This document shows positions 4,502-41,989 of a stretch of 64,000 nt of DNA, piece after piece. The stretch is taken from the NCBI RefSeq assembly GCF_000613125.1, contig NZ_HG964497.1:875207-939206 (forward strand), in the 5' to 3' direction. Every line of letters starts with the position of its first letter. Position 1 is the stretch's first letter. The notes under the pieces are model-generated. The model worked only from the letters and a program-made list of their open reading frames with translations. It was not told the DNA's origin and made no database searches. Origin of the DNA: Bacillus sp. EB01. Lineage in GTDB: Bacteria; Bacillota; Bacilli; Bacillales; Cytobacillaceae. The position numbers were made by a program, and so were the translations under genes.

Positions 4502-4821
4502 CGTAACTCCTTTCAGATACTATGTGATCTACTACCAACCTTAAAGCAACCCAGGGACAAAATCACGTTTGACAAGAATAAGTTCTCCTTTGCAGAGGAA
4601 TTCAAGGCCAAATTACCTTTAAAAACAAGTCTCTGGCAAGAAGTTTAAGGCTCGCCTCTGAAAACCTGCATTAGTCCTGGCCAGACAGTTTAGGGACTTT
4701 CACCTCTCAAAACCACCATTGTCCTCTTAAAAAGTATATTAAACATCCCTTCTACCACATTAATACCCCCCACACACCTTTTTAGCAAATTGCTGTTACT
4801 TTTTCAGGCAGTTGTTGAACT

Positions 4822-4968
4822 TTAATTTTTCCTAACATCAGATGAATCATCGTAATCATAGCGGAACCCATCGTTCTGTGGAGAAACACTGTTGCCCATT
4901 TTTTTATTTTTGTTGTCATGTTTGTTTCCTCTGCCGGCTTTCCCAGCGGATTTATTATTTTTGTCCAT
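4822..4968 (-). CDS. Small hydrophilic ORF, 48 aa
   Basis: ATG at 4968 is preceded by GGAAGGGGCAGGA and opens 48 codons rich in Asn, Lys, Gly and Asp. It starts MDKNNKSAGKAGRGN and ends YDYDDSSDVRKN, with no cysteine or hydrophobic segment. The good ribosome site, the biased but non-repetitive composition and the lone position next to sporulation-type genes recall small spore or late-stationary peptides. No family is recognised. A longer open frame overlaps it in another phase but has no ribosome site. Confidence 0.45.
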   Translation of the reverse strand: MDKNNKSAGKAGRGNKHDNKNKKMGNSVSPQNDGFRYDYDDSSDVRKN

Positions 4969-38009: not shown

Positions 38010-39593
38010 CTACTGCATTATCATTATCCCTGCTTGGTGCAATTTATTAGACACTCTATCAAATCCTTTCTCTTTTAATTCTTCCGGAAATATCCCTATA
38101 AAAGCGTATTCCTCAAGTAATTTATAGAAAAGCATTTTCCGAGTTGTCTTTTCAGAATAATGGGGATAGCGAGTAGAACCAAATAACCCAAAATATTCAA
38201 CTATATATTTCTGTCCATTCTGTTCAATGATCCAATCAGGAATATACGTTTCATTAGCATTCTCATTGTGGAAAAAGGCCGCCTCACGTTCAATTATTGC
38301 ATTGGTTAATAACTTGATAAATAAGTTATGAAGGATAAGCTCTTCTTTTGAATCACAGATTTGGCCATCATCCCCAACAAGCAATTGGAACTCTTGTAAT
38401 GAAAATGTATACTCTGGAAAACTTTCAATAATCCATCTATAAAATTTGCTATCATAGTGGCGGTCAGCAACACTAATAAATCGAGGGAAGTATTTACGAA
38501 AATAAGCCCGGTTTAAAAGTGGCAATTGATCACGCTTTATGTTTTCCTTTCTACAGTAATCCCTCAATGCCTGTATTCTATGCTCTTTTTTATACCAATA
38601 TTTATTCGGTACCCGCTGGAAGTCCGTTAGCGAGAACCTCCCTGGATAAAGAGCCTGGACAATTTCAATCGGTGATCCATGAAATCGGTCAAGCAAGCCA
38701 CCGAGTTTCGCTTCTGTAAGCTTTTTCTTTGTGAGAAAAGATGGTATATCTTGTTCTAACACACCTTCCTTTCCCAATAGCTTCTCAATCACATCCTTTG
38801 CATTTTGCAAATCATCCCAATAGCGATTTGGCTTTACGGGAAAATCTTCTATTGAAAAATGCTCAGGAAACAATGAACTCACTAGTTTTGAAACTGAACT
38901 AGAAAAAGAAGAAAGTACACCAGAAAGGCGATAGCGATAAAGAAGATCGCGATTTACCAGTTTTGGTACATCGTCCATTTGAATTTTTTCCTTTTCCAAT
39001 ATTTCAAGAAATTGTTGTTTTAAATTAGCCGTATCTTTTCGATAACCTTGGGGTGTCTTTTTAAAATCAGTTTCCTTGAAGCGATTGGGATAAAGTGAGC
39101 TTAATAACCTATAAGGAGAATCACCGTAACGCTTAAGTGGATTAGCAAAACCCCACTTAATGAGTAAATCGTAATTAATAGACGGAACGTCAGCAATTGT
39201 CAGCCCCTCCTGCTGAAGTCGCCATTCAAAACGTTCCTTTATGTTCCCTAGATTTGACCAATAATCTACCGGAACTTTACTAAACTCACATTCATGATAT
39301 TCGCCTGGATAAACAAAATGAATCAACTTACGAATTGATTTAAAACGATTCAAGGCACCCCAGAGCTTATTTTCTTTAATATGAGTGCGTGTAATTTTAG
39401 AAATCTCATCCCTTGTTAAACCAAGCTTAATTTCCAAAACATATCGAATAAGAACAATCGCGTTCTCATCCTTCTGCCACGTTCCTCTTGGCAGAGCACG
39501 TATTTGATTAGAAAGTAACTCATTATAAGGTTTTAAAGCTGGATGTTTGAGTAACTCATGATGTGATAGCCTTTGGAATTGTTCCAATTTCAT
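38010..39593 (-). CDS. Repeat protein with PD-(D/E)XK-like nuclease C-terminus
   Basis: About 527 residues (the frame extends three codons further up). Residues counted from the upstream codon: five tandem units of about 74 aa at 38-104, 110-180, 184-254, 258-328 and 332-405. Each begins P-x-x-YW or a variant, has a middle DxPxL and ends LYPxxF-x4-DF. Such units recall Firmicutes repeat proteins of unknown function (DUF4046-like, from memory). The tail has SKEEL (418-422), PDW (455-457), VEYFG (468-472) and a Lys-rich KTTRKMLFYK, the D...E...K order of restriction-endonuclease-like folds. The gene is AT-rich, lacks a clear ribosome site and has TATAAT only about 15 bases before the ATG, so the mRNA may be nearly leaderless. 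It is foreign-looking in the flagellar island. Confidence 0.6.
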   Translation of the reverse strand: MKLEQFQRLSHHELLKHPALKPYNELLSNQIRALPRGTWQKDENAIVLIRYVLEIKLGLTRDEISKITRTHIKENKLWGALNRFKSIRKLIHFVYPGEYHECEFSKVPVDYWSNLGNIKERFEWRLQQEGLTIADVPSINYDLLIKWGFANPLKRYGDSPYRLLSSLYPNRFKETDFKKTPQGYRKDTANLKQQFLEILEKEKIQMDDVPKLVNRDLLYRYRLSGVLSSFSSSVSKLVSSLFPEHFSIEDFPVKPNRYWDDLQNAKDVIEKLLGKEGVLEQDIPSFLTKKKLTEAKLGGLLDRFHGSPIEIVQALYPGRFSLTDFQRVPNKYWYKKEHRIQALRDYCRKENIKRDQLPLLNRAYFRKYFPRFISVADRHYDSKFYRWIIESFPEYTFSLQEFQLLVGDDGQICDSKEELILHNLFIKLLTNAIIEREAAFFHNENANETYIPDWIIEQNGQKYIVEYFGLFGSTRYPHYSEKTTRKMLFYKLLEEYAFIGIFPEELKEKGFDRVSNKLHQAGIMIMQ

Positions 39594-39856
39594 ATGTATC
39601 ACACTATTTGATTATACACAAAAAAGGAACGTATGTTTGTACATAAAAGCTATCTTAATAAATCTTTTTTCAGTGCCTTTTTTAATGTTAAAGGCCATGG
39701 ATAGTTCCGCGATTGCACTACTGGTAAGCCCTTAAATAGGGTCTCTACAAGAAATTCAAAAGTATGTTATTTGTTCCTGGATTTCTACATAGAAATTCAT
39801 TAATTTCGGATATCAGTTCCTGTTTTTTCATCCGCATACCCTTTAAAAATGCATGT
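39594..39856. other. Gap between flagellin and the repeat-nuclease gene
   Basis: It holds the TATAAT-type -10 element of the nuclease gene (about 39611-39616, minus strand) and no gene. Confidence 0.4.
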
Positions 39857-39893
39857 AAAAAAACACGGCTGATTGCTCAGACCGTGTTTTTTA
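39857..39893 (-). terminator. Terminator of the flagellin transcript
   Basis: AAAACACGG pairs with CCGTGTTTT, with a T run in the minus direction. It lies after the last C-terminal coding segment, so both introns are inside the hag transcript. Confidence 0.9.
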
Positions 39894-39900
39894 TTGTTTA

Positions 39901-39951
39901 TTAACGAAGAAGTTGAAGAACTCCTTGTGGCTGTTGGTTGGCTTGCTTTGC
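39901..39951 (-). CDS. hag: Flagellin C-terminal exon 3 (second C-terminus)
   Basis: Codes AKQANQQPQGVLQLLR and a stop, the classic Bacillus flagellin end, in an open frame beyond intron 2. It shares the protein sequence PQGVLQLLR with the end of exon 2 but differs at many third codon positions, so it is not a recent copy. It can be read only if intron 2 is spliced, or it is a relic of a second flagellin gene. Confidence 0.7.
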   Translation of the reverse strand, partial: AKQANQQPQGVLQLLR

Positions 39952-40298
39952 CGCTATGCCTTTCGGTCATAGAATAGACTATATCTTCATCCATACTATT
40001 ATGGAGCTGGGCACTTCGAACAGCTTATGCTGCCCTACGAGATTCATAGCCATAGCTTTTGCCGTAGACCGTATTCTCTAGTCGTTGAACCTTCTCCAGA
40101 GTTTCCTCACAGGAGCTTGGCTGCTGATTATCCATTGGTTCATCTTCATCATTTTCATGCCATCACGCTTACCGTTTCCAGTTGCGTTGTGGCTGATGAA
40201 GCTTTAGGAAGTTCCAGCAATTCACCCAGTTATCCTCTAGCTCGTTGCCAAGCTAGACGCCCTTCTAATCATTATCTCAAAAGTTGTAAAACCCCTTG
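39946..40298 (-). ncRNA. Group I intron 2 (no ORF)
   Basis: Conserved core elements on the minus strand: P (GAATTGCTGGAA, 40212-40223), Q (AATCAGCAGCCAAGCTCCT, 40110-40129), R (GTTCAACGACTAGA, 40077-40090) and S (GAAGATATAGTCT, 39976-39988). P2 is CTAGCT/AGCTAG. P9 is a GAAA-capped stem. The proposed 5' splice site follows ATGCCT, which pairs with GGGCGT just before P2 with a U-G pair at the cut. The 3' site is set at a G eight bases after P9, as in intron 1; GCG (39952) or CAG (39931) are alternatives. The first 27 bases encode QGVLQLLR and a stop in frame with exon 2. Confidence 0.85.
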
Positions 40299-40385
40299 AG
40301 GCATCTGATTGGATTGAGCCAGCATTGCTTGTGCTGCCTGAGAAAGAATTGAATTCTTAGTTTGTGCCATCATCTCTTTCGCCAT
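40272..40385 (-). CDS. hag: Flagellin exon 2 with a complete C-terminus
   Basis: Codes MAKEMMAQTKNSILSQ, then AAQAMLAQSNQMP and QGVLQLLR with a stop: the whole C-terminal D0 helix of flagellin. Joined to exon 1 it restores the family string RDVDMAKEMM. Its last nine codons overlap the proposed start of intron 2, so a full flagellin of 279 aa results if intron 1 is removed and intron 2 is kept. Confidence 0.85.
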   Translation of the reverse strand: MAKEMMAQTKNSILSQAAQAMLAQSNQMPQGVLQLLR

Positions 40386-40748
40386 CGTGCGAACATTTAC
40401 TTTCATAAATGACCAGACTATATCTTCACCCTCTAGTAATCTAGTAGGGGCTGGGCACTTCGGATCCACAATGCTGATGGACATTGTTTCACCTATGGAT
40501 TTCATCACCATAGCTTTTCGCCTTAGATGGTATATCCTAGTCGTTGAACCTTCTCCACTCTTTCGAGACAGGAGCTTGGCTGCTGATTGCCCAATCTTTT
40601 CTTTTTTCAAACCGTCACGTCTGTCGTTTCCAACTACGTTGTGGCAAGAAAAGCTCTAAGGGTTTTCCAGCAATTCACCCAATTATACTCGCTAGCCGTT
40701 ACCAGCTAGGACGACTGTGCTTGTTACTGCTTAAGCAGCTAAAGCATA
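40386..40748 (-). ncRNA. Group I intron 1 in the flagellin gene (no ORF)
   Basis: 363 nt. Core elements on the minus strand: P (GAATTGCTGGAAA, about 40664-40676), Q (AATCAGCAGCCAAGCTCCTG, 40569-40588), R (GTTCAACGACTAG, 40537-40549) and S (GAAGATATAGTCT, 40415-40427). P9 is CATTTAT-GAAA-GTAAATG. The exon ends in T (codon GAT) and the intron ends in G (CACG), as the class requires; removal joins RDVD to MAKEMM exactly. Pairing of the exon end with the guide sequence is weaker than in intron 2. No homing endonuclease frame is inside. Confidence 0.9.
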
Positions 40749-41474
40749 ATCTACGTCACGGATACGAGATTCCGCTGCAGTTGTGTTCTGTGCAGCATTA
40801 TCTAAGTTATTGATAGTATGTTCTAATCTATTTTGATATGCTCCTAATTTAGAGCGTTGGGCAGAGACTGAATCTAAAGCTGTTTGGAAAGTTGTAATCT
40901 GAGTCTGAGCTTTTCCATTATCTGATACATCAATATCACCAATAGTAGTAATAATACCTGCTAAGTCGATGCCTGTAGCAGCTGTAAAGTCTAATGTCAT
41001 GGACTCAGTTGCATTGGCACCAACTTGTAATGTAACAGTGCCAGCATTACCAGCTGAAGTACCGTCTAAAAGTTTCTGGTTATTAAACTGTGTAGTATCT
41101 TTTATACGTGTAAGTTCAGTCTTCAATTCCCCTAATTCATCAGCAATCGCAGTTCTATCTTCAGTATAATTTGTATCGTTCGCTGCCTGAACAGACAATT
41201 CACGCATACGTTGTAGAATATCTTGAGCTTCAGCTAAAGCTCCTTCGGCTACCTGAATCATTGATATACCGTCCTGGGCATTCTGAGATGCTTTTTCTAA
41301 CCCTCTAATTTGTCCACGCATTTTCTCTGAAATTGAAAGACCTGCTGCATCATCTCCAGCCTTGTTAATACGAAGACCTGAAGATAACTTCTCCATTGAA
41401 CTTTGTTGTGCATTATTCGCTGCACTCAATTGACGGTGAGTGTTAAGTGCTGCGATGTTATGGTTAATACGCAT
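40749..41474 (-). CDS. hag: Flagellin exon 1 (Hag)
   Basis: 242 codons: N-terminal D0/D1 (MRINHNIAALNTHRQLSAAN, LSSGLRINKAGDDAAGLSIS, RMRELSVQAANDT), a short variable centre and the start of the C-terminal coiled coil (LGAYQNRLEHTINNL, ESRIRDVD). Without splicing, five more codons (YALAA) and a stop follow, giving a protein without the export- and polymerisation-critical last helix. AGGAGG precedes the ATG. FliS binds the missing C-terminus, so unspliced product should be unable to use the chaperone. Confidence 0.95.
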
Positions 41475-41665: not shown

Positions 41666-41989
41666 CTAAGAGATTTGTATTTCTTCCTGCAAATACAATT
41701 CTTCACGATAAACCCTGATCTCTCTCGGTGCATCAATTGCGAGCCGCAATAATCCTGTTTCTGTCAGGAGAATGGTCACTTTAATAGAATCGCCAATTTG
41801 AACGGTTTCACTAATTGATTTAAGTTTTTTCTTAAAAATTCTAGCAGGTTCAGGCTTGGACCTAGTCACCTGGATGTTTTCCGGTGCATCAACTGTCAGG
41901 CGGAGTTTTGAAGCAAATTGGACAGCTGTTACTTTCACATCTCCATCAATGATGACGGATTGTCCAATTTCCCTCCCAATAATCAACAT
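41666..41989 (-). CDS. csrA: Tandem double-CsrA protein
   Basis: 107 residues holding two CsrA units; ordinary CsrA is about 60-75. Unit 1 (1-45): MLIIGREIGQSVIIDGDVKV, LRLTVDAPENIQVTR with Arg43 at the place of the RNA-binding Arg44. Unit 2 (about 52-104): ISETVQIGDSIKVTILL, LRLAIDAPREIRVYREELYL with Arg95. The first strand of unit 2 is degenerate (IFKKKLK) and unit 1 lacks the E-E after Arg. CsrA normally works as a dimer with shared strands, so this chain could fold as a built-in pseudo-dimer with one good and one altered RNA site. GGGGAGG precedes the ATG. Confidence 0.9.
   Translation of the reverse strand: MLIIGREIGQSVIIDGDVKVTAVQFASKLRLTVDAPENIQVTRSKPEPARIFKKKLKSISETVQIGDSIKVTILLTETGLLRLAIDAPREIRVYREELYLQEEIQIS

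Follow-up and report, generated by a model that had tools for sequence, protein, structure and literature searches.

A group I intron in the flagellin gene of Bacillus sp. EB01 and its relatives begins with a conserved copy of the exon it displaces

Abstract

The flagellin gene hag of Bacillus sp. EB01 contains two group I introns, the second of which opens with an in-frame copy of the displaced 3' end of the gene, complete with a stop codon. Here we report this architecture, its conservation, the selection that acts on the copy (the exon mimic) at the level of the protein, and compensatory change within the intron. The comparative data make it likely that the element as a whole serves as a spare exon, that is, a mimic-bearing group I intron with both flagellin ends under selection and with intron retention tolerated. 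Exact splice sites, splicing in cells, and the production and assembly of both proteins are what we infer from the same sequence comparisons.

Introduction

Group I introns are usually thought to persist in protein genes only with near-perfect splicing. Failed splicing should be cheap for a gene whose intron supplies a replacement for the interrupted sequence, and the arrangement reported here is a different solution to intron survival, one in which both copies have been kept by evolution in many lineages. It allows the coexistence of coupled translation and self-splicing to be tested, naturally occurring alleles without introns, with intron 1, with intron 2, with both or with a lost mimic serving as controls. 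Hayakawa and Ishizuka reportedly described flagellin genes with group I introns in thermophilic Bacillus and Geobacillus in 2009 and 2012.

The comparisons with known systems that follow draw on excerpts of the papers cited. The thermophile flagellin introns are reported to be self-splicing in a temperature-dependent manner (cited in PMC3984707 and PMC4853749) and, like hag intron 2, are group I ribozymes in a flagellin gene; the excerpts that cite them are silent on an exon mimic, on a second intron with a spare end and on cross-family conservation. The conserved mimic is what is new here, flagellin group I introns and temperature-dependent splicing being already known, and earlier flagellin work may have noticed some of this. 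The literature searched, in which subscription journals were thinly covered, yielded no account of a self-splicing intron with a copy of the displaced exon maintained by selection. An in-frame stop near the start of an intron is a recognised device (excerpt of PMC3984707); the unusual step would be the turning of such an early-stop segment into a full substitute end.

Mobile insertions with a diverged in-frame copy of the host 3' end, as in hag intron 2, are found in the mitochondrial gene hybrids with C-terminal duplication of Glomus (atp6, atp9, cox2 and nad3) and Allomyces (atp6), the Glomus atp6 copies being 63.5% identical in nucleotides and 91% in amino acids (PMC3630166). With its in-frame copy of the host 3' end, hag intron 2 shares this feature of the C-terminal duplication elements. 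The fungal inserts carry an endonuclease gene, and the excerpt describes the native atp6 and cox2 ends as not found in mRNA (PMC3630166), whereas hag intron 2 is a group I intron without an endonuclease gene and has both ends under selection; no listed open reading frame longer than 90 aa lies within the 371-nt intron 2 studied here. Mitochondrial introns of Tremella also carry a copy of host coding sequence, but their duplications are N-terminal and the model proposed for them is host gene fragment exchange (PMC7315562). The IStrons of Clostridioides and others are bacterial group I introns (PMC4227781) whose alternative splice sites could give protein variants (PMC4853749). IStrons carry a transposon; hag intron 2 measures 342-421 nt over 90 loci, too short for a transposase or IS element, and is therefore not an IStron.

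Sequence data and methods

The window is the whole stretch of DNA that was analysed, 64,000 nt of a genome of one contig (5.28 Mb), and positions refer to it unless another locus is named. Searches of the window's family and order gave 106 distinct places, of which 96 (window included) were analysed and 10 left out; 91 of the 96 are complete and five are relics, which were set aside. Fisher and binomial p-values ignore shared ancestry throughout. A slash within a sequence marks a putative cut.

Organization of the hag locus

The hag gene lies on the minus strand within a flagellar gene cluster, whose members were named by eye (Table 1). On the frame 40734-41474, Pfam reports PF00669 (E 4.6e-47) and PF00700 (E 1.7e-14). 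Both introns match the group I model RF00028 above its cut-off of 50 bits: intron 1 at 40394-40743 with 89.5 bits, and intron 2 at 39954-40291 with 74.1 bits (E 6.8e-18, full model 1-253). The matches end at 39954 and 40394, a few bases inside the putative intron ends, and in an alignment of the two introns 227 of 340 positions are identical. An earlier note on this DNA had proposed that the frame of exon 2 stays open as far as PQGVLQLLR and then stops, that a second group I intron follows, and that QANQQPQGVLQLLR, another stop and a terminator stand behind it; each of these elements was found as described, the last as a terminator-like hairpin.

Table 1. Features of the hag locus in the window; splice sites and guides are predicted
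Feature	Position	Strand	Description
hag exon 1	40749..41474	-	726 nt, ends ..ESRIRDVD; Flagellin_N and start of Flagellin_C
Group I intron 1	40386..40748	-	363 nt; putative sites GAT/TATGC .. TTCGCACG/ATGGCG
Intron 1 guide AGTC	40713..40716	-	predicted to pair with GAT/T, U.G at the cut
hag exon 2	40317..40385	-	69 nt, 23 codons, MAKEMM..AMLA
Group I intron 2	39946..40316	-	371 nt; putative sites GCT/CAATC .. GCAAAG/CAAGC
Exon mimic	40272..40316	-	first 45 nt of intron 2; QSNQMPQGVLQLLR and stop in the frame of exon 2
Mimic stop codon	40272-40274	-	ends the read-through of exon 2
Intron 2 guide GGGC	40259..40262	-	predicted to pair with exon GCT/ and intron base +1, C; U.G at the cut
Possible small hairpin spanning the 3' splice site of intron 2	39940..39952	-	GGC-AAAG/CAA-GCC, cut in the loop
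hag exon 3 (displaced real end)	39901..39945	-	QANQQPQGVLQLLR and stop; stop ends at 39901
Terminator-like hairpin behind the real end	39857..39892	-	by eye
C-terminal tryptic peptides of the two flagellin ends			predicted; ..AMLAQANQQPQGVLQLLR and ..AMLAQSNQMPQGVLQLLR

Retention of intron 1 is predicted to give a truncated flagellin of 247 aa that ends ..DVDYALAA. For intron 2, the spliced and the retained form are both predicted to encode 279 aa and to differ at residues 267 (A when spliced, S when retained) and 270 (Q and M, respectively).

Two neighbouring frames were also noticed. Beside hag, at 41666-41989 on the minus strand, the csrA product has 107 residues with two CsrA stretches (PF02599). 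Downstream of hag, at 38010-39602 on the same strand, lies a frame of 530 residues that matches DUF4046 weakly (PF13255, 26.7 bits).

Distribution of intron 2 and its mimic

An exact pattern spanning the end of intron 2 and the beginning of the real end was used to search relatives, and the counts it gives are lower bounds: 38 of 193 genomes of the window's family matched, as did 63 of 397 genomes in an even draw of the order, with 32 of 136 genera represented. In a draw of the phylum, 2 of 398 genomes matched, both of the window's family and one of them the window's own genome, and the pattern was absent from the 391 genomes outside the order. An intact mimic, defined by a length of 14 codons and a VLQLL ending, is present in 88 of the 91 complete loci (window included), only three failing the definition. 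The arrangement is thus not a product of chance, and the proposal of the earlier note that intron 2 starts with an exon mimic holds well beyond the window. By a tally of family labels, the 88 mimic loci spread over 19 families.

The two introns occur in all combinations. Among 61 loci of the family, which were picked for a group I match or a hag gene there and are not a random sample, the 59 that were classed comprise 19 with both introns, 19 with intron 1 alone, 17 with intron 2 alone and four with neither. A further set of 80 named loci holds 10 with an intron by pattern: intron 2 in Mesobacillus subterraneus and Peribacillus muralis, both introns in Priestia koreensis, and intron 1 only in the remaining seven. 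Since the unspliced frame of an allele with intron 2 alone looks like a flagellin of normal length, annotation may miss the element.

The five relics (L244, L258, L279, L281 and L282) either are without the 5' half of the intron or lie behind an intact hag. L282 and L244 consist of an intact hag lacking intron 2, followed by a 5'-truncated fragment of intron 2 and a second flagellin ending, and may show how introns or endings are lost. Two loci from different families, L196 and L234 (G125, G445), are identical in mimic, spacer and guide region, which may reflect recent transfer or a contaminating contig.

Evolution of the mimic as protein

An MLAQ-type start is present in 90 loci, and in 88 of them the frame first meets a stop at codon 15 of the intron. 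All 88 mimics read VLQLL and then R, K or Q. Their codons vary, with four in use for V, five for each of the three L positions and two for Q, and the stop is TAA in 84, TGA in three and TAG in one; a spacer of 6 to 12 nt follows the stop. On a tree built from the part of the intron behind the guide (87 loci), parsimony counts 273 synonymous and 84 nonsynonymous changes over the whole mimic, where about 22% synonymous would be expected by chance. For the last eight codons the ratio is 181:17 (dN/dS-like value 0.031), and for the real end it is 148:12 (0.025). The mimic tolerates more change than the real end, most of all at its fifth residue (M, L, I, T, S, A, R, V or Y), and the two C-termini differ in that the real end has ANQQP and the mimic mostly SNQ, then M, L or I, then P.

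Mimic and host also agree in their variants. A mimic ending in Q occurs in 5 of 5 hosts with LLQ and in 1 of 82 hosts with LLR (87 loci; Fisher 1.6e-7, shared ancestry ignored), and L270 and L271 have A for G in the real end and likewise A in the mimic. Preservation of the mimic as an RNA structure, or through gene conversion from exon 3, rather than as protein, is extremely improbable on these data. The first codons of the mimic can indeed pair with the spacer behind the stop, at least four consecutive pairs being possible in 88 of 88 loci when many offsets are searched without a chance control. The changes nevertheless concentrate at third positions (248 of 357), and the shifted reading frames, with ratios of 0.87 and 3.9, are under no comparable constraint. 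Nucleotide identity between mimic and real end is 0.679 within a locus and 0.680 between shuffled partners (p 0.70), so the conservation is not attributable to gene conversion. Taken as tests of the two readings, these results largely refute them.

The real end and natural alleles

All 90 complete loci in which the real end could be evaluated have it intact (L196 is cut off by the end of its contig), a count biased toward loci with an intact real end because the pattern demanded CAAGC after the intron. This native end is under strong purifying selection, which speaks against its having been replaced and silenced. It is also intact in the three complete loci whose mimic is broken or absent: L225 has two stop codons in the mimic, with GVLQLLQ still readable behind them, and in L227 and L273 unrelated short frames take its place. 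The opposite case is L084 (Ureibacillus terrenus), where the flagellin, at 4708-4846 of that locus, ends exactly in SNQMPQGVLQLLR with a terminator-like repeat behind it (by eye). No intron match was found downstream of that end, so the mimic end seems to suffice alone.

Both ends would accordingly appear to be needed, at least sometimes. Simultaneous selection on mimic and exon 3, together with the compensated intron pairs, is best explained if both RNA forms make flagellin, and the comparative data in this way support the suggestion of the earlier note that spliced and unspliced RNA each give a complete flagellin end and that retention should be harmless. In a PDB search that matched 46 sequences, the five alignments shown end in ANQQPQGVLQLL or ANQQPQNVLQLLR and are uninformative on the mimic peptide.

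Splice sites

We place intron 2 between the codons for MLA and QANQQPQGVLQLLR, where the putative sites GCT/CAA and AAG/CAA would restore the canonical MLA/QANQQPQGVLQLLR. GCT/C can form all four pairs with GGGC, with U.G at the cut, in 88 of 88 mimic-bearing loci, the guide having been located by a search for GGGCG and intron base +1 set to C by extraction. The P1 helix of intron 2 has three exon-side pairs only and shows no covariation among intron-2 copies. Its counterpart in intron 1 is GAT/T with AGTC (65 distinct loci); compared between the introns, two of the four pairs have thus changed in a compensatory way. The codon at the site is GCT in all 90 intron-2 loci, compared with 61 of 94 flagellin ends that lack the intron (possible duplicate loci included), which is an enrichment (Fisher 1e-11, shared ancestry ignored).

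The earlier note had instead proposed a 5' cut within the mimic, behind ATGCCT and before QGVLQLLR, on the strength of a pairing with GGGCGT, and had expected a spliced flagellin seven residues longer. In the window these two sequences can form six pairs, with U.G at the cut. Over the 88 mimic loci, however, the guide is constant and its partner at this site varies at third codon positions (CCT, CCG, CCA, TCT), so that six pairs are possible in only 51 loci and fewer in 37, and U stands at the cut in only 77. The incomplete pairing argues that this site is wrong, and we regard a cut there as very improbable; the cut that fits all 88 loci is GCT/CAA, 42 nt upstream of the mimic stop codon, which leaves the two predicted products equal in length. 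The longer end would also exceed the listed flagellin ends of intronless relatives, a weak argument in that the list came from a fixed-length pattern. Single-sequence folds of the 5' region contain all four GCT/C pairs with GGGC in 46 of 90 loci, with half of P2 included and competing, and at least four pairs of ATGCCT with GGGCGT in 2 of 90; the mean probability of the U.G pair is 0.58 for the former site and 0.016 for the latter. Two further cuts were rejected by eye: a cut after ATGYT can pair with GGCGT but gave no frame-keeping 3' site ending in G, and for a cut after CAAT no pairing with the guide was found. An apparent covariation between the window and L163 at the ATGCCT helix was ruled out, the guide of L163 being identical.

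The putative 3' cuts, AAG/CAA in intron 2 and ACG/ATG in intron 1, were chosen because the intron then ends in G, the frame is kept and the protein of intronless relatives is restored (DVD/MAKEMM and MLA/QANQQP); a last intron base G in 90 of 90 loci is built into the search pattern. Around each cut a small hairpin may form, with the cut in its loop (40379-40394 for intron 1, and 39940-39952 for intron 2); in these hairpins the last intron bases covary with the first exon bases across the window and its relatives. At the intron 2 hairpin, pair (-7,+6) is C-G in 60, G-C in 28 and G-U in two of 90 loci. The intron 1 hairpin is TTCGC with GCGAA in 61 of 63 loci, with TTTGC in one and GCCGC with GCGGC in another.

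Structure prediction for the intron finds compensatory change in 52 of 97 predicted pairs (44 sequences). The consensus fold of 44 sequences shows neither the P1 formed by GCT/C and GGGC nor the 3' hairpin, and in it exon GCT pairs with AG/C across the 3' cut. Folded alone, the P1 region of the window does pair GCUC with GGGC, but not better than shuffles (z -0.73), and the predicted fold of the isolated 3' piece of the window lacks the hairpin at the 3' splice site.

Proposed working of the two introns

In the mechanism that we propose, the long P1 loop of intron 2, between the 5' splice site and the guide, would house the in-frame copy of the displaced exon. As transcription and translation are coupled, leading ribosomes would arrive at an intron before its ribozyme is complete. 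At intron 1 these early ribosomes would stop soon, usually after YALAA, and leave a truncated protein; in all 65 distinct loci that the 5'-side pattern retrieved, the in-frame stop occupies one and the same codon position, and it directly follows YALAA in 55 of them. At intron 2 early ribosomes, or those on RNA that is never spliced, would complete the flagellin and terminate ahead of the ribozyme core, which could then fold. Once intron 2 is spliced, later rounds of translation would use exon 3 and yield the canonical end at the same protein length. Because both ends are kept by selection, retention would be tolerated, and both RNA forms probably supply flagellin.

A more speculative extension, to which we give only a small chance, is that the two endings form a regulated pair: temperature or physiology would set the extent of intron 2 splicing and hence the share of each C-terminus, and the two would differ in export, chaperone binding or filament properties. 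If true, a ribozyme would here govern alternative splicing for a structural protein of bacteria, and at least 19 families would have retained the system.

Alternative explanations

Intron 2 might no longer splice in cells, or have done so only in an ancestor, with the mimic as the sole end in use and the ribozyme left in the 3' untranslated region. Three points favour this: the mimic is by itself a complete end, such an end occurs in one species where no intron was found downstream, and the P1 proposed here is missing from the consensus fold. Such a loss of splicing nonetheless seems unlikely, given the excess of synonymous change in the real end, the compensated intron pairs, and the three loci that keep an intact real end with a broken or absent mimic. 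Conversely, splicing could be practically complete and the mimic only a safe stop that keeps ribosomes off the ribozyme; in-frame stops near the starts of group I introns are thought to help folding (excerpt of PMC3984707), and intron 1 has such a stop in every one of its 65 loci. A stop, however, needs no VLQLL, as intron 1 usually manages with YALAA, and the mimic residues are conserved through synonymous change, so we hold this to be quite unlikely. If splicing were complete, only ribosomes arriving ahead of it would expose the mimic to selection.

The earlier note had also considered that a second flagellin gene, now decayed, was fused to the end of the first, and two flagellin endings do stand in tandem. 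In the window this is refuted by the RF00028 match that fills the gap between the endings, about 370 nt of group I intron with the compensated pairs described above. The same element lies between the endings in the other complete loci, alleles exist with no intron, with either one alone and with both, and the relics L244 and L282, where an intact hag, an intron fragment and a second end follow one another, are a different arrangement. We give the fused-gene account almost no credence, and the mimic-bearing intron with two selected ends remains the reading that we prefer.

Other group I matches

Two more group I introns, about 1.5 kb apart, were met in passing at L003 and L004 (G000:C1:3418537-3418825 and 3420311-3420611), in a gene that we take, by eye, to be a ribonucleotide reductase, with a possible small nuclease-like frame at the edge. 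L005 has a weak group I match at 1501-1775 (35 bits, below the cut-off) behind an smpB-like frame (by eye); ARAGORN found no tmRNA gene on L005. Similar weak matches of 273-277 nt occur in 6 of 8 genomes of the genus, and the L005 match is perhaps an intron in a tmRNA gene.
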